From assembly GCF_001590905.1 (NCBI RefSeq), contig NZ_BCTT01000007.1:62001-126000 (forward strand): a stretch of 64,000 nucleotides of DNA, in the 5' to 3' direction. The notes under the pieces were generated by a model, which did no database searches, was not told the DNA's origin, and saw only the letters and a list, made by a program, of their open reading frames with translations. Each line of letters opens with the position of its first letter. The first letter of the stretch is position 1. Positions 3,889 through 13,399 of this stretch are shown one piece after another. The position numbers were made by a program, and so were the translations under genes. Source of the stretch: Serratia grimesii NBRC 13537. GTDB lineage: Bacteria; Pseudomonadota; Gammaproteobacteria; Enterobacterales; Enterobacteriaceae.

Positions 3889-4114
3889 TTGCAGCGATAG
3901 GACTTTTTTATCACTCGCCCTAACTTGTAATAGGTATGTAAAATTATTGTGATTAGGCGCTCAAAATTGACCCATTTTTAATTCATTTTTGTTGAATAGC
4001 TCACTGTTCTTCCGCGCCTCACTAATGAGATTAACGTCAATAAAATCATTATCACATTGATTACAAACAAAAATAACTTTCTCTTATGCCATTTTCAGCA
4101 TTCACTGGTCGGTG

Positions 4115-4143
4115 TTGCATATGCTTGTACATACAAGTATATG
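4115..4143 (+). promoter_or_regulatory. hutU promoter with HutC-type operator
   Basis: TTGCAT (4115-4120) and TATATG (4138-4143) are spaced 17 bases apart. The inverted repeat CTTGTA-CA-TACAAG (4124-4137) fills the spacer, extended to ATGCTTGT...ACAAGTAT at 4121-4140. It closely resembles the HutC operator described for Klebsiella hut operons, where urocanate releases the repressor. A repressor bound here would block polymerase directly. hutC itself is not in the window. Confidence 0.75.
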
Positions 4144-4229
4144 TTAATAAAACCTACCCATTGTTATGGCGTGGTGATTTACCCGACCGCACCATGGGAT
4201 CTGCACCGATACTGTTTGAGGAAAATGCT

Positions 4230-5921
4230 GTGACTGCAAATAACAAAGTTCGCAATGTCGATGTACGCGCGCCACGCGGCACAAAATTAAATGCAAAAAG
4301 CTGGCTGACCGAAGCGCCGTTGCGCATGCTGATGAACAACCTCGATCCGGAAGTCGCGGAAAACCCACATGAGCTGGTGGTATACGGCGGCATTGGCCGC
4401 GCCGCGCGCGACTGGGACTGCTACGACAAAATTGTCGCGACCCTGAAAACCCTGGAAGATGACGAAACCCTGCTGGTCCAGTCAGGCAAGCCTGTCGGGG
4501 TCTTCAAAACTCACAGCAACGCACCACGCGTACTGATCGCCAACTCCAACCTGGTCCCACACTGGGCGACCTGGGAACATTTTAACGAACTGGATGCCAA
4601 GGGCCTGGCCATGTACGGCCAGATGACCGCAGGTAGCTGGATCTACATCGGCAGCCAAGGCATCGTCCAGGGTACTTACGAAACCTTCGTGGAAGCAGGT
4701 CGCCAGCATTATGACGGCAGCCTGCAAGGCCGCTGGGTGCTGACCGCCGGCTTGGGTGGCATGGGTGGCGCACAGCCGCTGGCTGCCACGCTGGCAGGCG
4801 CTTGCTCGCTGAACATTGAATGCCAGCAAAGCCGCATCGATTTCCGCCTGAAAACCCGCTATGTCGATGAGCAAGCTACAGATCTGGACGACGCACTGGC
4901 CCGCATCAAGAAATACACCGCCGAAGGCAAAGCCATCTCCATCGCTTTGTGCGGTAACGCAGCAGACATTCTACCGGAACTGGTTCGCCGCGGTGTACGC
5001 CCAGATATGGTCACCGACCAAACCAGCGCCCATGACCCACTGAACGGCTACCTGCCAAAAGGCTGGAGCTGGGAAGAATACCGCCAGCGCGCCCAAAGCG
5101 AGCCTGCGCAAGTGGTCACCGCCGCTAAGCAATCTATGGCTGAACACGTAGAAGCTATGCTGGCCTTCCAGAAAATGGGCGTGCCAACCTTCGACTACGG
5201 CAACAACATTCGCCAAATGGCGAAAGAAATGGGCGTCAACAACGCCTTTGATTTCCCAGGCTTCGTCCCTGCTTACATTCGCCCACTGTTCTGTCGCGGC
5301 ATTGGTCCATTCCGTTGGGCTGCGCTGTCTGGTGATCCACAGGACATCTACAAAACTGACGCGATGGTTAAAGAGCTGATCCCAGATGACGAGCACTTGC
5401 ACCGCTGGCTGGATATGGCGCGCGAGCGTATCAGCTTCCAGGGCCTGCCGGCACGTATTTGCTGGGTTGGTTTGGGCCAACGCGCCAAGCTGGGTTTGGC
5501 CTTCAACGAAATGGTACGCAGCGGCGAACTGTCAGCACCTATCGTGATTGGTCGTGACCATCTGGACTCTGGTTCAGTTGCCAGCCCGAACCGCGAAACA
5601 GAATCGATGAAAGATGGCTCAGATGCCGTATCTGACTGGCCACTACTCAACGCCCTGTTGAATACTGCCAGCGGCGCAACCTGGGTTTCTCTGCACCATG
5701 GCGGCGGCGTCGGCATGGGCTTCTCACAGCATTCCGGTATGGTTATCGTTTGTGATGGCACCGATGAAGCCGCCGAACGTATCGCCCGCGTATTGCATAA
5801 TGACCCGGCTACCGGCGTGATGCGCCATGCTGATGCCGGCTACGACATCGCCATTGAATGCGCCCGCGAGCAAGGTTTGAACCTGCCGATGGTGGCTGCG
5901 ACTCAAGGAGACAAAGCATGA
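4230..5921 (+). CDS. hutU: Urocanate hydratase (urocanase)
   Basis: The protein (563 residues from the GTG at 4230) hydrates urocanate to 4-imidazolone-5-propionate with tightly bound NAD+, the second step of histidine degradation. It matches HutU over its full length, including [11 protein letters not shown] near the N-terminus, the NAD-binding [12 protein letters not shown] segment, and the [10 protein letters not shown] region containing the conserved cysteine. The GTG start has GAGG about 9 bases upstream and gives the usual family length; longer in-frame starts at 4086 and 4197 would extend into or past the operator. The stop overlaps the hutH ATG by four bases, indicating translational coupling. 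Confidence 0.95.
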
Positions 5922-7453
5922 AAGCGCTGACTATCCGCCCTGGCCAACTGACACTGGCGCAACTACGTGAAATTTATCAACACCCGGTCACCCTGACTCT
6001 GGACGACAATGCCTACGCAGATATCCAGAAAAGCGTCGCCTGCGTTGAACGTATCGTTGAGGAAAACCGTACCACTTACGGTATTAACACCGGTTTCGGC
6101 CTGCTGGCGTCCACCCGTATCGCCCGTGAAGACCTGGAAGATTTGCAGCGCTCGATCGTGTTGTCACATGCCGCTGGCGTTGGTGCGCCAACCGACGACA
6201 ATCTGGTGCGCCTCATTATGGTGCTGAAAATCAATAGCCTGTCGCGCGGCTTCTCCGGCATCCGTCTGGAAGTCATTCAGGCGCTGATGGCACTGGTCAA
6301 CGCCGAAGTCTATCCACACATCCCACTCAAAGGTTCCGTGGGCGCCTCCGGCGACCTGGCACCGCTGGCGCACATGAGTCTGGTGCTGCTGGGTGAAGGC
6401 AAAGCCCGTTATCAGGGTGAATGGCTACCGGCTACTGAAGCGCTGGCCAAAGCGGGCCTGAAGCCACTGACGCTGGCGGCCAAAGAAGGTCTGGCGCTGC
6501 TGAACGGTACTCAGGTTTCCGCCGCCTTTGCTCTGCGCGGCCTGTTTGACGTGGAAGACTTGTACGCCGCAGCAACGGTCACCGGTAGCCTGACGGTGGA
6601 AGCCGCTCTGGGCTCACGCAGCCCGTTTGATGCGCGCATTCATGCCGTTCGCGGTCAACGTGGTCAGATCGACGCCGCCGCCGCTTACCGCCATCTGCTG
6701 GGCGAACGTAGCGAAGTATCTGATTCACACCGCAACTGTGAGAAAGTGCAGGATCCGTACTCCCTGCGCTGCCAACCTCAGGTGATGGGCGCCTGCCTGA
6801 CGCAAATTCGCCAGGCCGCCGAAGTACTGGAAATTGAAGCCAACGCAGTGTCCGACAACCCACTGGTATTTGCAGACCAGGGCGACGTGCTGTCCGGCGG
6901 TAACTTCCATGCCGAACCGGTCGCGATGGCCGCTGACAACCTGGCGCTGGCGTTTGCCGAAATCGGCTCGCTGTCTGAACGCCGCATCTCATTAATGATG
7001 GATAAACACATGTCACAACTGCCACCATTCCTGGTGGACAACGGCGGTGTGAACTCCGGCTTTATGATTGCTCAGGTGACCGCCGCGGCGCTGACCAGCG
7101 AAAACAAAGCGCTGGCGCATCCGGCAAGCGTCGACAGTATCCCGACGTCTGCCAACCAGGAAGATCATGTGTCCATGGCACCGGCTGCCGGTCGCCGCCT
7201 GTGGGAGATGGCAGATAACGTTCGCGGCATTCTGGCCGTCGAATGGCTGGCGGCTTGCCAGGGGCTGGATTTACGTAAAGGTCTAAAAACCACAGAAAGT
7301 CTGGAGCAGGCGCGCCACGTATTACGTGAGCAGGTCAGTTACTACGACAAGGATCGTTTCTTCGCCCCCGACATTGAAGCCGCCAGCCTGCTGTTGGCAG
7401 CCGGTCATCTGACCTCATTGATGCCTGCAGCACTGCTGCCTAGCCAGGCATAA
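5918..7453 (+). CDS. hutH: Histidine ammonia-lyase (histidase)
   Basis: A 511-residue enzyme that removes ammonia from L-histidine to give urocanate. The autocatalytic MIO cofactor forms from Ala143-Ser144-Gly145 in [15 protein letters not shown]. Other active-site features of the family are present: the tyrosine of [28 protein letters not shown] and [11 protein letters not shown]. The ATG at 5918 overlaps the hutU stop (ATGA), so the two enzymes are co-translated. It should be induced with hutU from the 4115-4143 promoter. The intact triad contrasts with the paralogue at 11876. Confidence 0.97.
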
Positions 7454-7679: not shown

Positions 7680-9071
7680 ATGCATAACGAAAAAACACAA
7701 CTCAGACGCGGACTAAACGCGCGACATATCCGCTTTATGGCGCTCGGCTCAGCCATCGGTACCGGTCTGTTCTACGGCTCTGCCGGAGCAATCCAACTGG
7801 CCGGTCCGGCAGTACTACTGGCCTATCTGGTAGGCGGTGCCGCCGTATTTATGGTGATGCGTGCACTGGGTGAAATGGCGGTGCATCAGCCGGTGTCCGG
7901 TTCCTTCGGCCACTACGCCAGTCACTACCTTGGCCCGTTGGCCGGTTTCCTCACCGGCTGGACCTATACCTTCGAAATGGTGATTGTTGCCCTGGCGGAC
8001 GTGACCGCCTTCGGCATCTATATGGGGCTGTGGTTCCCGGACGTCGCCCAATGGGTGTGGGTGCTCAGCATCATCATGTTTATCGGTGCGCTCAATCTGT
8101 GCAGCGTGAAAGTGTTCGGCGAAATGGAGTTCTGGCTGTCGCTGATCAAGGTGGCAGCCATTGTGGCGATGATCATCGGTGGCGCCGCAGTGATGTTGTT
8201 TGGTTTTGGCCAGACGCAGCACGCTACCGGCATCAGCAATCTGTGGGCACACGGCGGCTTTATGCCTAACGGCATCGGCGGCGTGGTCGCTTCATTGGCG
8301 GTCGTGATGTTCGCCTTTGGCGGCATCGAAATCATTGGTATCACGGCCAGCGAGGCAAAAGATCCTGCGAAAGTGTTACCAAAGGCCATTAATGCCGTGC
8401 CGATTCGTATTCTGCTGTTCTATGTACTGACGCTGCTGGTGTTGATGGCTATCTATCCGTGGAACAGCATCGGCCAAAACGGAAGCCCGTTTGTTGAGAT
8501 CTTCAGCAATCTGGGTATCAGCTCTGCCGCCAACGTCCTGAACGTGGTGGTGATCACCGCCGCCATCTCCGCCATTAACAGCGACATCTTCGGTGCAGGT
8601 CGCATGATGTACGGCATGGCGCAGGATGGCCAGGCGCCAAAAAGCTTCTCTAAACTGACGTCCAGTGGCGTGCCCTGGATGACGGTGTTGGTGATGTCAG
8701 TCGCCCTGCTGTTGGGTGTGGTACTCAACTATCTGATCCCAAAACAGGTCTTTATGATCATCGCCTCCATCGCGACCTTCGCCACTGTCTGGGTATGGTT
8801 GATGATCCTACTGTCTCAGATAGCCATGCGCCGCACGCTGTCACCGCAAGAGGTCAGTCAGCTGAGCTTCCCAGTGCCATGGTGGCCAGTCGCCCCCGCG
8901 CTGGCGACAATATTTATGCTGTTCGTCATCGGTCTGCTCGGCTACTTCGAAGACAGCCGCATCGCCCTGTACGTTGGGCTGGTGTGGGTGGCATTCCTTA
9001 CTTTGGCTTACTGGTTGTGGGTACGTAAAAAAGGCGGGGGTTCACCCGTCACGACCTCACCACAGTATTAA
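7680..9071 (+). CDS. hutT: Amino acid permease, APC family (HutT/ProY-like, probable histidine uptake)
   Basis: A 463-residue inner-membrane permease with about 12 transmembrane segments. The N-terminal [27 protein letters not shown] is typical of the amino acid transporter branch that includes HutT, ProY and HisP-like permeases. The ATG at 7680 has GGGAAG upstream; earlier in-frame starts fall in or next to the ERIC repeat. Following hutH, it most plausibly imports histidine, but closely related family members carry proline or aromatic amino acids, so the gene name is by context. A 7-bp inverted repeat (9078-9098) without a T-run follows it. Confidence 0.8.
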
Positions 9072-9123: not shown

Positions 9124-10089
9124 ATGCAAACACGACACAAATTATGGATACCACTCATTGCGCTCGGACTGATGACAGGCAGTCTGTCCGCGCGCGCAGC
9201 AGGCTGGTGCGAATCCGGCAAACCGATCAAGTTCGCCGGGTTGAACTGGGAAAGTGGCATGCTGCTGACTGACGTCATGCAATACGTGCTGCAAAAGGGC
9301 TACGACTGCAAAACCGACGCGCTGCCGGGCAATTCCATTACCATGGAACAGGCAGTCGGCACCAACGACATTCAGGTATTCGCCGAAGAGTGGATTGGCC
9401 GTAGCGAAGTCTGGAACAAAGCCGAGAAATCCGGCAAAGCGGTCAGCGTTGGCGCGCCGATTGTCGGGGCAGTCGAAGGTTGGTACGTGCCCCGCTATGT
9501 GATTGAAGGCGATGCCAAACGCAACTTGAAACCACTGGCACCCGATCTGAAAAGCATCCCGGATTTAGCCAAATATGTGCAGGTCTTCCGCGATCAAGAA
9601 GAACCAGACAAAGGCCGCTTTTACAACTGCCCGGCCGGTTGGACCTGTGAACTCGACAACACCGCGATCCTGAAGAAATTCAAACTGGATGATAAGTTTA
9701 CTAACTTCCGTCCTGGTACCGGCCCTGCCCTGGATACCGCAATTCTCTCCAGCTACCGCCGCGGCGAGCCGATTCTCTTCTATTACTGGTCGCCAACCCC
9801 AATCATGGGCCAACTCGATCTGGTGAAACTGGACGAACCCGGCGTCGATAAAAACATCCACATCAAAGTCGGTATTTCCAGCGTATTCAACCAGCAGGCA
9901 CCGGAACTGGTGCAGATGCTGTCAAAAGTGAACATACCGCTGGATCTGATTAACCAGAATCTGGCACGTATGAGCAAGGAACGCATCAGCTCGCAGAAGC
10001 TGGCACTGGAGTTCTTCAAACAGCACCCAGACATCTGGAAACAGTGGGTCAGCGAAGACGCAGCGAAAAAAATTCAGGCCTCTTTGTAA
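9124..10089 (+). CDS. hutX: ABC transporter substrate-binding protein (OpuAC/HutX-like)
   Basis: A 321-residue periplasmic binding protein with a clear signal peptide (residues 1-25, cleavage likely after SARA). It belongs to the glycine betaine/proline betaine binding family, with tryptophans suited to a ligand cage in GLNWESG, AEEWIGRSEVW, VEGWYVP and YYWSPTP. Members next to hut genes (HutX in rhizobia and pseudomonads) bind histidine as well as betaines. It is the first gene of a binding protein-permease-ATPase trio. The start is the ATG at 9124 after GTGGAG. Ligand assignment is by context only. Confidence 0.8.
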   Translation: MQTRHKLWIPLIALGLMTGSLSARAAGWCESGKPIKFAGLNWESGMLLTDVMQYVLQKGYDCKTDALPGNSITMEQAVGTNDIQVFAEEWIGRSEVWNKAEKSGKAVSVGAPIVGAVEGWYVPRYVIEGDAKRNLKPLAPDLKSIPDLAKYVQVFRDQEEPDKGRFYNCPAGWTCELDNTAILKKFKLDDKFTNFRPGTGPALDTAILSSYRRGEPILFYYWSPTPIMGQLDLVKLDEPGVDKNIHIKVGISSVFNQQAPELVQMLSKVNIPLDLINQNLARMSKERISSQKLALEFFKQHPDIWKQWVSEDAAKKIQASL

Positions 10090-10156: not shown

Positions 10157-11002
10157 ATGTTCCCAGAACGTTTTACTTTCTCCATCGCCGATTGGATCAA
10201 TCGCTGGGTCGATGTCCTGGTCAACAACTATGGCGATATGTTCCGCAAGATTTCCGACACCCTGCTGTGGGCAGTGATCCACCTTGAGAGCCTGCTGCGC
10301 GCGACGCCATGGTGGCTGATGTTGGCCGTCGTTGGACTTTTGGCGTGGCATGCCACCCGCCGCTGGTTACCAACGGTGGTGATCGTGGGTTTGCTGCTGT
10401 TGGTCGGCACCGCAGGTATGTGGGATAAATTAATGCAAACCCTGGCGCTGGTGTTGGTTGCCACTCTGCTGGCGGTCATTATCGGTATTCCACTTGGTGT
10501 ACTGGCAGCACGTAACGATCGCGTACGAGCAGTGATGATGCCGCTGATGGATGTCATGCAAACCATGCCAAGCTTCGTGTATCTGATCCCCGTGCTGATG
10601 CTGTTCGGCCTTGGCAAAGTACCCGCTATCCTTGCAACGGTGATTTACGCCACACCACCGCTAATCCGCTTAACCGATTTGGGTATCCGTCAGGTGGACA
10701 AAGAAGTGATGGAATCCGTCACTGCCTTTGGCGCCAACCGTTGGCAGAAACTGTTCGGCGTGCAGTTACCGCTGGCGCTGCCAAGCATTATGGCCGGTAT
10801 TAACCAAACCACCATGATGTCACTGTCGATGGTGGTTGTGGCTTCGATGATCGGCGCACGTGGGCTGGGTGAAGACGTGCTGGTGGGCATTCAGACACTG
10901 AACGTCGGTCTGGGCCTGGAGGCAGGTCTGGCGATCGTTATTCTGGCCGTGGTCATTGACCGTATCACTCAGGCTTATGGCCGTTCCGCCGTTGCGAGGT
11001 AA
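10157..11002 (+). CDS. hutW: ABC transporter permease (ProW/HutW-like)
   Basis: A 281-residue inner-membrane permease with about six to seven hydrophobic segments. The cytoplasmic EAA-type loop that contacts the ATPase is TAFGANRWQKLFGVQLPLA (about residues 191-209), and the stretch from TLLAVIIGIPLGVLAARN to GARGLGEDVL is the conserved core of the betaine/histidine permease family. It lies 67 bases after the binding protein and five bases before the ATPase gene, so the three form one importer. The likely start is the ATG at 10157; the GGGG before it is a plausible ribosome site. Confidence 0.85.
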   Translation: MFPERFTFSIADWINRWVDVLVNNYGDMFRKISDTLLWAVIHLESLLRATPWWLMLAVVGLLAWHATRRWLPTVVIVGLLLLVGTAGMWDKLMQTLALVLVATLLAVIIGIPLGVLAARNDRVRAVMMPLMDVMQTMPSFVYLIPVLMLFGLGKVPAILATVIYATPPLIRLTDLGIRQVDKEVMESVTAFGANRWQKLFGVQLPLALPSIMAGINQTTMMSLSMVVVASMIGARGLGEDVLVGIQTLNVGLGLEAGLAIVILAVVIDRITQAYGRSAVAR

Positions 11003-11007
11003 CCCCG

Positions 11008-11865
11008 ATGAACAAAATCGAAATCAAAAACGTCTACAAGATCTTTGGCCACAAAACGGCGGCGGCGCTGGCCATGAGCCAGCAAGGTAATACCAAGCAG
11101 GAAGTCCAGGCAGCGACCGACTGCGTGATCGGCGTACACGATCTTTCGATGTCAATCGAGGCCGGTGAGATCTTCGTGATTATGGGCCTGTCAGGCTCGG
11201 GGAAATCCACGCTGGTACGCCACTTTAACCGCCTGATCGACCCCACCAGCGGTCAGATCCTGGTGGATGGCGAAGATATCTTGCGCTATGACGAAAAGCA
11301 GCTTGAGCACTTCCGCCGTCACAAGATCAGTATGGTATTCCAAAGCTTTGGCTTGCTGCCCCACAAAACCGTTTTGGACAACGTGGGCTATGGCTTGAAA
11401 GTGCGAGGTGAGGCAAAAGAGGTGTATCAGGAACGCGCACTGCACTGGATAAATACTGTTGGGTTAAAGGGTTACGAAAAATCATACCCGCATCAACTCT
11501 CTGGCGGTATGCGTCAGCGCGTCGGGCTAGCCCGCGCACTGGCTACCGATACCGATATCATTTTGCTGGACGAAGCCTTCAGTGCGCTCGATCCGTTAAT
11601 TCGTGCAGAGATGCAGGATCAACTGTTGGCGCTGCAAAAAGAGCTACACAAAACGTTGGTGTTCATCACGCACGATCTCGATGAGGCTGTACGTATCGGC
11701 AACCGGATCGCGATCTTGAAGGACGGGAAACTGATCCAGGTCGGCACACCACAGGACATTCTTAACAATCCGGCCGATGAATACGTTAACCGCTTCGTGC
11801 AGCGCCGCCTGGCATTGGATGAAAACGTGAAAAAACCGCGCCCGATGAGCGTCGCCCGTGCCTGA
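11008..11865 (+). CDS. hutV: ABC transporter ATP-binding protein (ProV/HutV-like)
   Basis: The 285-residue cytoplasmic ATPase energises the HutX-W importer. It has Walker A (GLSGSGKST near residue 64), the signature LSGGMRQRVGLARAL, Walker B (IILLDEAFSALD) and the switch histidine in FITHDLDEA. It is shorter than E. coli ProV (about 400 residues) because it lacks the C-terminal CBS pair used for osmotic sensing, which suits a catabolic rather than an osmoregulated importer. The stop lies ten bases before the next start, so co-translation with the lyase-like gene is likely. Confidence 0.88.
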   Translation: MNKIEIKNVYKIFGHKTAAALAMSQQGNTKQEVQAATDCVIGVHDLSMSIEAGEIFVIMGLSGSGKSTLVRHFNRLIDPTSGQILVDGEDILRYDEKQLEHFRRHKISMVFQSFGLLPHKTVLDNVGYGLKVRGEAKEVYQERALHWINTVGLKGYEKSYPHQLSGGMRQRVGLARALATDTDIILLDEAFSALDPLIRAEMQDQLLALQKELHKTLVFITHDLDEAVRIGNRIAILKDGKLIQVGTPQDILNNPADEYVNRFVQRRLALDENVKKPRPMSVARA

Positions 11866-11875
11866 GGAACTCACT

Positions 11876-13399
11876 ATGCATTATCCCTCTTCGGTTATCC
11901 TCGACAACCAGCCATTGCGTTGGCAAGACGTGGTGGCAGTCGCGCGCCATCACGCCCCTCTCAGTCTGTCTGACGCTGCCTGGGCGCGCATCGATAATGC
12001 ACAGGCCATCGTGCAGAAAATCGTTACCAGTGAGCAGCGCGCTTATGGCGTCAATACCGGTCTGGGTGCACTGTGCAATCAGGCGCTGCACGGCGAGCAG
12101 CTGGCACAACTGTCCCGCAACACGCTGATGAGTCACGCCTGCGGCGTAGGAGAACCACTGCGCGATGAACAGACTCGCGCCATCATCTGTTGCGCCATCG
12201 TCAACTACAGCCATGGCAAATCAGGTATTCGGCGTCCGGTAGTAGAAACCCTGTTGGCACTGCTTAACCGGGGGATTACCCCGCAGGTGCCGTCACAGGG
12301 TTCGGTCGGCTATCTGACCCATATGGCACATGTCGGCGTCGCGCTGCTCGGGTTGGGTGAAGTCAGCTACCGTGGCCAACTCGTCACGGCAACTCATGCG
12401 TTGGCGGAAGAAGGCATAGTGCCCCCGCAACTGGGTGCCAAAGATGGCCTGTGTCTGGTCAACGGCACCCCTTGCATGACCGGATTAAGCTGCCTGGCGT
12501 TGGCCGATGCCTGGCGGCTGGCCCGCTGGGCGGACGTACTTGGCGCCATGAGTTTCGAAGCTCTGGGTGGGCAGATCGCCGCCTTTGACTCAGAAATTTT
12601 AGCGCTTAAGCCCCACCCGGGGATGCAGCAGGTCGGCAGAAATCTGCGGACGCTATTAAACAGCAGTGAGATGATTGCCGCCAGTGAAGGCATTCGTACT
12701 CAGGATGCTCTGAGCATCCGTTCGATCCCACAGGTACATGGTGCCTGCCGTGATCAGATTGCTCATGCTGAACGACAGATTGAAACCGAACTGAACGGCG
12801 CTACCGACAATCCCCTACTGCTCGGCACGCCGGACAACTATCGCGTGATGTCACAAGCCAACCCGCACGGCGAGTCAGTGGCAATGGCCGCCGATCTGCT
12901 GGCGATCACCATCGCCGAACTCGGCGGTATCGCAGAACGGCGTATCGATCGACTCATTAACCCGCTGGTCAGCGGCTTGCCGGCATTTCTGGTCAGCGAA
13001 CCTGGGGTGAATTCCGGCATGATGATCGCTCAATATGTCGCAGCATCGCTGTGTGCGGAAAACCGTCAACTGGCGCAACCTTGCGTGGTCGATAACTATG
13101 TGACTTCGGCACTGCAGGAAGATCATCTCAGTCTGGGAACCGGGGCAGCATTGCGGTTGCATAAGTCGTTAGCCAACGTGAACCAGATCCTGGCGATTGA
13201 ATACCTGCTGGCGGCACAAGCCTTTGAATTCCTAAAGCAGTACCGTTTTGGTGAAGGCACGCACCGCGCCTGGCAACGTTTACGGCAGGTGGTGGCACCT
13301 TATCATCAGGACCGCTGGCTGGCGCCGGACATCGCCAGCAGCGCCGCGCTACTGCAGGACGAACAAGCGCTGCTGGAGATCGCCCCGACACTGTTGTAG
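11876..13399 (+). CDS. Histidase-like protein lacking the MIO-forming Ala-Ser-Gly triad
   Basis: This 507-residue protein belongs to the histidine/phenylalanine ammonia-lyase superfamily and aligns with HutH end to end. Where HutH reads [15 protein letters not shown], this one reads GSVG-YLTHMAHV (12299-12325): exactly the three residues that form the MIO cofactor are missing, with the frame intact. The active-site tyrosine loop (AYGVNTGLG), SHACGVG and NSGMMIAQ are kept, while [11 protein letters not shown] is altered to QDALSIRSIPQ. It therefore probably is not a standard ammonia-lyase; a ligand-binding, chaperone or different catalytic role is possible. The start at 11876 has GAGGAA upstream and follows hutV by ten bases, implying a role tied to the transporter or histidine use. 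Confidence 0.85.
   Translation: MHYPSSVILDNQPLRWQDVVAVARHHAPLSLSDAAWARIDNAQAIVQKIVTSEQRAYGVNTGLGALCNQALHGEQLAQLSRNTLMSHACGVGEPLRDEQTRAIICCAIVNYSHGKSGIRRPVVETLLALLNRGITPQVPSQGSVGYLTHMAHVGVALLGLGEVSYRGQLVTATHALAEEGIVPPQLGAKDGLCLVNGTPCMTGLSCLALADAWRLARWADVLGAMSFEALGGQIAAFDSEILALKPHPGMQQVGRNLRTLLNSSEMIAASEGIRTQDALSIRSIPQVHGACRDQIAHAERQIETELNGATDNPLLLGTPDNYRVMSQANPHGESVAMAADLLAITIAELGGIAERRIDRLINPLVSGLPAFLVSEPGVNSGMMIAQYVAASLCAENRQLAQPCVVDNYVTSALQEDHLSLGTGAALRLHKSLANVNQILAIEYLLAAQAFEFLKQYRFGEGTHRAWQRLRQVVAPYHQDRWLAPDIASSAALLQDEQALLEIAPTLL

Follow-up and report, generated by a model that had tools for sequence, protein, structure and literature searches.

A conserved MIO-less histidase paralogue beside the hut genes of Serratia grimesii, putatively a lyase of a histidine betaine

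The lost MIO triad and the family that shares it

The stretch of DNA analysed here, referred to as the window, consists of 64,000 nucleotides from Serratia grimesii NBRC 13537 and carries, among genes of histidine utilisation (hut) and of a betaine-type importer, two members of the histidase family. One is a canonical hutH; the other (11876..13399, + strand) encodes a paralogue of 507 amino acids without the residues that form the 4-methylideneimidazole-5-one (MIO) group of histidases, and is called YLTH here after the sequence at the altered site. Its open reading frame (ORF) extends from an ATG at 11876 to a stop at 13397-13399, giving 507 codons with zero internal stops. The altered site, GSVGYLTHM (12299..12325, + strand, in frame as codons 142-150 of the ORF), has Tyr in place of the MIO-forming Ala-Ser-Gly and the Asp that follows, ASG(D). 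The protein represents a conserved MIO-less family, for which a role as a lyase acting on a modified histidine is considered below.

In BLASTP the YLTH protein is identical to HutH (5918-7453) at 194 of 477 positions (41%, E 1e-109) with seven gap positions, three of which form the gap at ASG, and both proteins cover the PF00221 model end to end (1-466 of 466), HutH with 636.5 bits and the YLTH protein with 545.9 bits. MAFFT sets the Tyr against Ala142 and deletes Ser143-Gly144-Asp145; phmmer sets it against the MIO residue itself. Whichever alignment is followed, the Ser is lost and ASG is gone from the MIO site, and therefore MIO cannot form in the YLTH protein. A first-pass annotation of the window had described a full-length paralogue, in register with HutH and free of frame damage, that had "precisely" lost the triad and that began ten bases after a histidine/betaine-type importer. 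The loss, the register and the intact frame are all borne out; whether it is "precisely" the triad that is missing depends on the alignment. The ten bases are the 10-nt spacer between the stop of the importer ATPase gene (11863-11865) and the ATG, and a GAGGAA (11864..11869, + strand), Shine-Dalgarno-like in sequence and presumably also in function, overlaps both the stop and the spacer. The importer is indeed of the betaine type and is better named a HutXWV/OpuAC betaine-type importer.

The hutH equivalog model TIGR01225 gives the YLTH protein 544.4 bits against a cut-off of 539.15, such that it passes by 5 bits despite the missing MIO triad. A score so barely above the cut-off makes automatic naming as HutH unsafe, and the source-named homologues among the matches listed are labelled histidine ammonia-lyase (HAL), HutH or HAL/PAL/TAL ammonia-lyase.

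Of 7567 homologues that scored under the E limit, the 120 listed read GSVGYLTHMAH throughout and have 76-99% identity; those that are named are nearly all from Serratia and Pseudomonas, and the nearest named one among the matches listed is from Serratia proteamaculans (94%). Within the genus the gene is present in 10 of 30 genomes at E <= 1e-180, its own genome counted, and the order hutU, hutH, permease, OpuAC, OpuAB, OpuAA, YLTH is kept in 9/9 neighbourhoods fetched (L172-L180). Pairwise dN/dS of the YLTH gene against these nine loci is 0.050-0.072, with several dS values above 1 and near saturation, and that of hutH in the same comparisons is lower (0.008-0.046). Values of 0.05-0.07 reflect constraint, and are not proof of catalysis.

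Beyond the genus, the clade spans alpha-, beta- and gamma-proteobacteria, with members found by plasmid and species-genome searches in Erwinia, Rhizobium, Sinorhizobium/Ensifer, Aureimonas, Thalassospira, Labrys, Kaistia, Pleomorphomonas, Burkholderia, Paraburkholderia, Caballeronia and Trinickia and in gammaproteobacterial metagenome bins. The species-genome scan confirmed at least 587 stretches as relatives, and all 80 loci kept and read carry the motif, as do the six plasmid loci fetched. An alignment of 172 distinct PF00221 sequences, gathered partly with a YLTH-bearing pattern such that its shares are not population frequencies, divides into 107 with the Tyr and gap, 53 with ASG, 11 with a one-residue deletion and one reading GYLGP. 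Three residues are missing and Tyr stands at the MIO site in 107/107 members of the YLTH clade, in which the motif reads GSVGYLSH (53), GSVGYLTH (48), GSAGYLTH (5) or GSVGYIVH (1). The 172 sequences were thinned at 80% identity and 400 aa to 76, and in the maximum-likelihood tree of these all 32 YLTH rows group together (support 100/100); long branches leave the placement of the remaining MIO-less groups uncertain. The window itself is the sole match in a pattern scan of 274 genomes spread evenly over the class, and a gene-order scan found 3 of 197 genomes, the window among them. The family is thus patchy.

YLTH is an intact, conserved and single-origin MIO-less family. This supports well the first-pass view of a repurposed protein, the gap being fixed in a monophyletic, conserved clade. 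A frameshift or strain-level decay is ruled out by the intact ORF, the shared motif, the occurrence in other genomes of the genus and the low dN/dS. An ASG shifted to another place is likewise ruled out, as the motif region of YLTH members is without it and the rest of the window protein is in register with HutH.

Importers and hut genes around the family

The run of genes leading to YLTH in the window begins with hutU (4194..5921, + strand; start chosen inside the ORF 4086-5921), a true urocanase with 1029.2 bits to TIGR01228 and with 700.4 bits to the thiourocanate hydratase model, below the cut-off of 930. It is followed by hutH (5918..7453, + strand), a canonical histidase with GSVGASGD (TIGR01225, 744.4 bits), and by an amino-acid permease gene (7683..9071, + strand; PF00324, 388.1 bits) between hutH and the importer. 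The ATP-binding cassette (ABC) importer consists of an OpuAC-type, HutX-like periplasmic binding protein (9124..10089, + strand; PF04069, 183.8 bits), whose best solved relative is 7yle of the betaine family (105.2 bits), a HutW-like permease of betaine/choline type (10157..11002, + strand; PF00528; 299.5 bits to a choline-permease model, below its cut-off of 363) and a HutV-like ATPase of betaine/proline/choline type (11008..11865, + strand; TIGR01186, 361.6 bits, above the cut-off of 326.6). The hutF, hutI, hutG and hutC genes of the same genome are on another contig. A HutC-operator-like palindrome, CTTGTACATACAAG (4124..4137, + strand), with one mismatch to the consensus of that operator, lies upstream of hutU and heads the hutU-to-YLTH run; at up to three mismatches the window has four matches against 1.26 expected, a number that 6 of 100 shuffles reach and that is weak by itself.

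In 96 of 105 loci besides the window an ABC ATPase gene lies directly upstream on the same strand, its match ending -60 to 400 nt ahead of YLTH. The 105 come from 107 rows (L139/L183 and L140/L184 are each counted once) in a sample heavy in Burkholderia and Paraburkholderia, and neighbourhood counts exclude matches with less than 44% identity to the window YLTH protein, namely HutH, ergothionase-like proteins and the distinct L141 protein described below. The importers are of two types, 77 of the polar-amino-acid type (PAAT) and 19 of the OpuAC (HutXWV) type, and the joining of two such unlike systems to YLTH therefore suggests a shared imported substrate. The OpuAC importer is followed directly by the HutH paralogue in the nine same-genus loci and in 4/4 of L132-L134 and L137. 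Eight tryptophans, including W42, W90, W120 and W222, are invariant in 20/20 OpuAC-type binding proteins. Compared with HisJ, the 78 PAAT binding proteins, which include that beside L141, have gained Trp52 (76/78) and Asp69 (78/78) and keep Arg77 and Asp161 (78/78). As proof of a quaternary ligand the importer pocket is not decisive, the invariant OpuAC tryptophans standing against a PAAT site that has gained Asp69 and Trp52 with Asp161 in place and that lends itself to either interpretation.

Most YLTH loci are compact importer-YLTH units. Within the fetched stretch of 86 loci (L007-L092), a match to a HutC-type regulator accompanies YLTH in 69, hutF in 21, hutU in 18, hutI in 12, hutG in 11 and canonical hutH in 3. 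Seven loci, six of Caballeronia and one of Burkholderia sp. Leaf177, have the order importer, YLTH, hutU, hutD, hutI, hutF, hutG, and Aureimonas has hutF, YLTH, hutI, hutG, hutU, hutD; a canonical hutH was not found in the stretch of those seven loci or of Aureimonas, and the five Caballeronia-type/Aureimonas genomes queried have HutH elsewhere. A PF00221 protein of more than 600 bits, HutH-like by score, also occurs in 17/17 YLTH genomes queried and in 9/9 recognised in a phylum sample (77 PF00221 rows minus six, of which two were HutH-level rows and four fragments). YLTH is no substitute for HutH. All four hydratases tested from the vicinity of YLTH (the window, L070, L011 and L184) are true urocanases (TIGR01228 945-1029 bits) and lie below the cut-off of the thiourocanate hydratase model NF058530.

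The HutC-operator-like palindrome TTGTN4ACAA is present upstream of the importer in 51/96 loci, against 0.2 expected from simple shuffles and 0/96 in gene interiors, the pattern having been picked after inspecting palindromes and then set against shuffles. By importer type it is found in 51/77 PAAT and 0/19 OpuAC loci, the importer genes of the latter perhaps belonging to a longer run; the stricter HutC site, an exact TGTANNTACA, is present in 9/96 loci. The HutC-type regulator is often 3' of YLTH (L009, L013 and similar), and hutD occupies that place in two loci (L086, L091), where one might have expected further catabolic genes. A solA-like gene for a flavin adenine dinucleotide (FAD) amine oxidase directly follows YLTH in L008 (8511-9665), L090 and L150, that of L008 being annotated as N-methyl-L-tryptophan oxidase.

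Active-site residues and the putative substrate

Residues are numbered here as in Pseudomonas putida HAL; Y280, F329 and D145 are confirmed as mutated positions by Protein Data Bank titles. The clade keeps H83, N195, Q277, R283, M382 and E414 of histidases in 107/107 sequences each and Y53 in 106/107, the remaining one being an alignment gap. We take R283 to hold the carboxylate, H83, M382 and E414 to hold the imidazole, with N195 counted among the residues of these two sides, and Y53, Q277 and E414 to be catalytic in HAL, such that the kept residues presumably include those that move the beta-proton. The catalytic three are retained while the clade, in 107/107, has Tyr for A142, lacks S143, G144 and D145 and has Leu for Y280; F329 has become Ala in 87 sequences and Pro in 20. 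Leu at 280 is thus universal in YLTH, is found in 10/11 one-residue-deletion paralogues and is absent from the ASG enzymes (0/53). The changed positions appear to surround the amine and the cofactor, with the carboxylate and imidazole sides apparently kept, and this pattern says, as far as residues can, that the substrate would still be an imidazole amino acid and would no longer be a primary amine. Loss of Tyr280 combined with a small side chain at 329 would widen the amine side. An AlphaFold2 model of the YLTH protein has a predicted local distance difference test score (pLDDT) of 90.3 and a predicted template-modelling score (pTM) of 0.92, and its template-modelling (TM) score is 0.91 both to HAL (1b8f) and to ergothionase (6s7j): the fold is intact.

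What, then, would a histidase fold without MIO do beside these genes? Of the three roles offered in the first-pass annotation, a histidine or urocanate sensor, a partner of HutH, or an enzyme with another mechanism, the last fits best, because the histidase residues other than those around the lost MIO are kept, the hutH place can be taken beside a true urocanase, and there is the precedent of ergothionase; what speaks for a sensor or partner is the co-occurrence with HutH. YLTH is probably some form of MIO-free lyase that yields urocanate. For the window gene, a putative MIO-free histidase-fold lyase, the leading candidate substrate is hercynine (Nalpha-trimethylhistidine, histidine betaine), which we propose tentatively; that the clade as a whole consists of hercynine trimethylamine lyases, at the entry of a histidine-betaine route joining hut at urocanate, is a possibility to be held slightly more loosely. 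Four things are predictions here: that YLTH is enzymatically active, that its substrate is hercynine, that trimethylamine is the group which leaves and that urocanate is formed.

Hercynine is a product of fungi and actinobacteria. Its quaternary nitrogen has no lone pair with which to attack MIO and cannot add to it, and there is therefore no reason for such an enzyme to keep MIO. In the proposed sequence of events the betaine-type ABC importer next door would bring hercynine into the cell, and its imidazole and carboxylate would be seated in YLTH as those of histidine are in HutH. YLTH would then abstract the beta-proton and trimethylamine would leave, with the urocanate so formed passing to HutU next door and then to HutI, HutF and HutG encoded elsewhere in the genome, and relieving HutC.

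The same residue and operon evidence would serve a MIO-free lyase that makes urocanate from some other amine-modified histidine, such as Nalpha-methyl- or Nalpha,Nalpha-dimethylhistidine or an opine such as histopine. The L008 PAAT protein, which scores best against solved octopine- and nopaline-binding proteins (203 and 188 bits), points this way, as does the N-methyl-amino-acid-oxidase-like character of the solA gene in the three loci mentioned. However, by general chemistry secondary and tertiary amines leave poorly without MIO, the invariant OpuAC tryptophans would suit quaternary ammonium ligands, and we know of no enzyme of this kind; we regard this alternative as rather unlikely. Deamination of plain L-histidine by a MIO-free route would suit the kept imidazole and carboxylate residues and the hutH place that YLTH occupies at some loci, but ammonia leaves poorly without MIO, each of the 26 YLTH genomes checked also encodes a HutH-like protein, and in Pseudomonas fluorescens SBW25, according to PMC8871633, hutH1 is dispensable for growth on histidine. 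A plain histidase is accordingly very improbable.

Doubtful too, and less likely than a lyase of another modified histidine, is a non-catalytic protein that senses histidine or urocanate or is a partner of HutH, the importer or HutC. The loss of MIO and the presence of a HutH-like protein in every YLTH genome checked are what such a role would explain. That co-occurrence is also predicted for an enzyme, and no other positive evidence was found; drift would be expected of a pseudoenzyme at Y53, Q277 and E414, which are invariant bar the one gap, though Y280 and F329 have changed as well; YLTH stands in for hutH in the gene order of the seven Caballeronia-type loci and Aureimonas and often has its own importer and HutC-type gene, and the one characterised MIO-less HAL-fold protein at hand, ergothionase, is an enzyme.

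A number of points weigh against hercynine lysis as the function of YLTH, among them the co-occurrence with HutH, which would suit a partner role too. The importer is not obligatory: 9/105 loci have no ABC ATPase directly upstream, and although two of these, Aureimonas (L011) and L184, sit among hut genes, no importer or hut gene was recognised in the stretch of the other seven (L075-L077, L079, L084, L088, L183), one of which, L084, is a 5.5-kb contig. The urocanase link rests on the minority of loci with hutU in the fetched stretch, and the dN/dS of YLTH, though far below 1, exceeds that of its neighbours in comparisons partly near saturation. Asp161, which we take to bind the free amine in HisJ, is kept in the PAAT proteins, and because of this and of the resemblance of the L008 protein to opine-binding proteins other N-substituted histidines fit as importer ligands too. 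PA5093 may be a YLTH gene, in which case a defect on histidine would misfit a hercynine enzyme. For a deletion named "hutG (PA5093)", PMC12772324 (2025) reports impaired growth on both histidine and urocanate, and HutXWV is reported in PMC8871633 to be involved in histidine uptake. If PA5093 is YLTH, the defect needs another account, be it mislabelling, polarity or a regulatory role. The flanking ORFs of L075, L076 and L079 look housekeeping by eye from their N-termini.

Relation to known systems

Known already are the fold, ergothionase as a relative that has lost MIO, and a dispensable hutH1. In the open-licence literature, covered by titles and abstract starts, no paper was found that deals with a hutH1 lacking MIO or with how hercynine is degraded, and no account was found there of YLTH as a conserved family without MIO, of the pattern of its residues, of its linkage to importers or of its association with true urocanases. 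If the proposed function is true, the HAL fold would host a second MIO-free lyase chemistry beside that of ergothionase, hidden as "HutH" in many proteobacterial genomes. As betaine lyases these proteins would give the unexplained duplicate hutH1 a function, the betaine-type hut importers a ligand and hercynine a degradation route. The purpose of MIO could also be tested cleanly on them, since an unchanged imidazole/carboxylate site would have dispensed with the cofactor where the amine can leave without its help. YLTH proteins should not be named histidase by annotation pipelines.

One hutH copy of SBW25 is reportedly nonfunctional. A five-gene insertion in this strain adds hutTu, hutXWV and hutH1, and the hutTu-hutXWV-hutH1 module is present in P. 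aeruginosa as well (PMC8871633). The SBW25 module is like L132-L134 and L137, taken as Pseudomonas by identity, in which hutU, a codB-like permease, the OpuAC importer and YLTH follow one another. It is by gene order only that SBW25 hutH1 is equated with YLTH; the accessible part of PMC8871633 describes it as a histidase gene and mentions neither MIO loss nor another substrate.

With P. putida HAL (1b8f) YLTH shares the full-length PF00221 fold and Y53, H83, N195, Q277, R283, M382 and E414; unlike YLTH, HAL has ASG/MIO, Y280 and F329, and YLTH forms its separate 100/100 clade. The fumarase/aspartase superfamily has 7% identity to YLTH and an active site that we take to differ.

Other MIO-less paralogues also occur. 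The 11 with a one-residue deletion lose the Ser and read AGD (4), AAD (3), EGD (2) or CAD (2); such paralogues are those of L153-L159 and L161-L163, in genomes of the phylum. A third PF00221 paralogue of the S. grimesii genome itself is ergothionase-like (L160, G000:C10:153500-171500), with GSVG-EGD, 267 bits to 6s7j and, by eye, a hydrophobic signal-like N-terminus. It adjoins a thiourocanate hydratase gene (NF058530, 1014.5 bits, cut-off 930), a major facilitator superfamily (MFS) transporter and an S-Me-THD-like protein, and L160 (4924-6582 and 7975-9621) is a candidate ergothioneine degradation cluster whose lyase is possibly exported. The CAD-type gene of L162 has a thiourocanate hydratase (1054.7 bits) about 4 kb away. 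The distinct HutH-like gene of L141 (6458-8032, - strand), the single GYLGP case, reads GSVGYLGPEGH, with the same three-residue gap yet with Tyr280 and Phe329 kept, and is directly preceded by a polar-amino-acid-type ABC importer.

The closest comparison is with ergothionase, the HAL-fold trimethylamine lyase of ergothioneine, which is reported to lack MIO (PMC13405746, 2026). In alignment, the Treponema denticola enzyme (6s7j) has EGD where HAL forms MIO, and its residue at the place of 280 is Leu. The HAL fold, the replaced MIO residues, this Leu and the TM score of 0.91 are what YLTH has in common with it, and they are what would favour YLTH as an ergothionase, or an ergothioneine-sulfonate lyase, acting on a thiolated or oxidised betaine. 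That is quite unlikely, however, since identity is 28%, 6s7j has the EGD motif and an NKD segment, common to it and L003, where YLTH has Tyr with a three-residue gap and no NKD, and N195 and M382 of histidases, replaced by Ser and Gly in EGD and CAD types, are retained in YLTH. YLTH also lies outside the tree group of the ergothionase-like paralogue (6s7j is not in the tree), and the S. grimesii genome is already provided with an ergothionase-like gene. From sequence, the YLTH clade thus appears not to be ergothionase. The partner hydratases differ as well, thiourocanate hydratases standing by one EGD-type and one CAD-type gene and true urocanases beside YLTH, such that in the cases tested the type of lyase tracks the type of hydratase, which suggests that the product of YLTH is urocanate.

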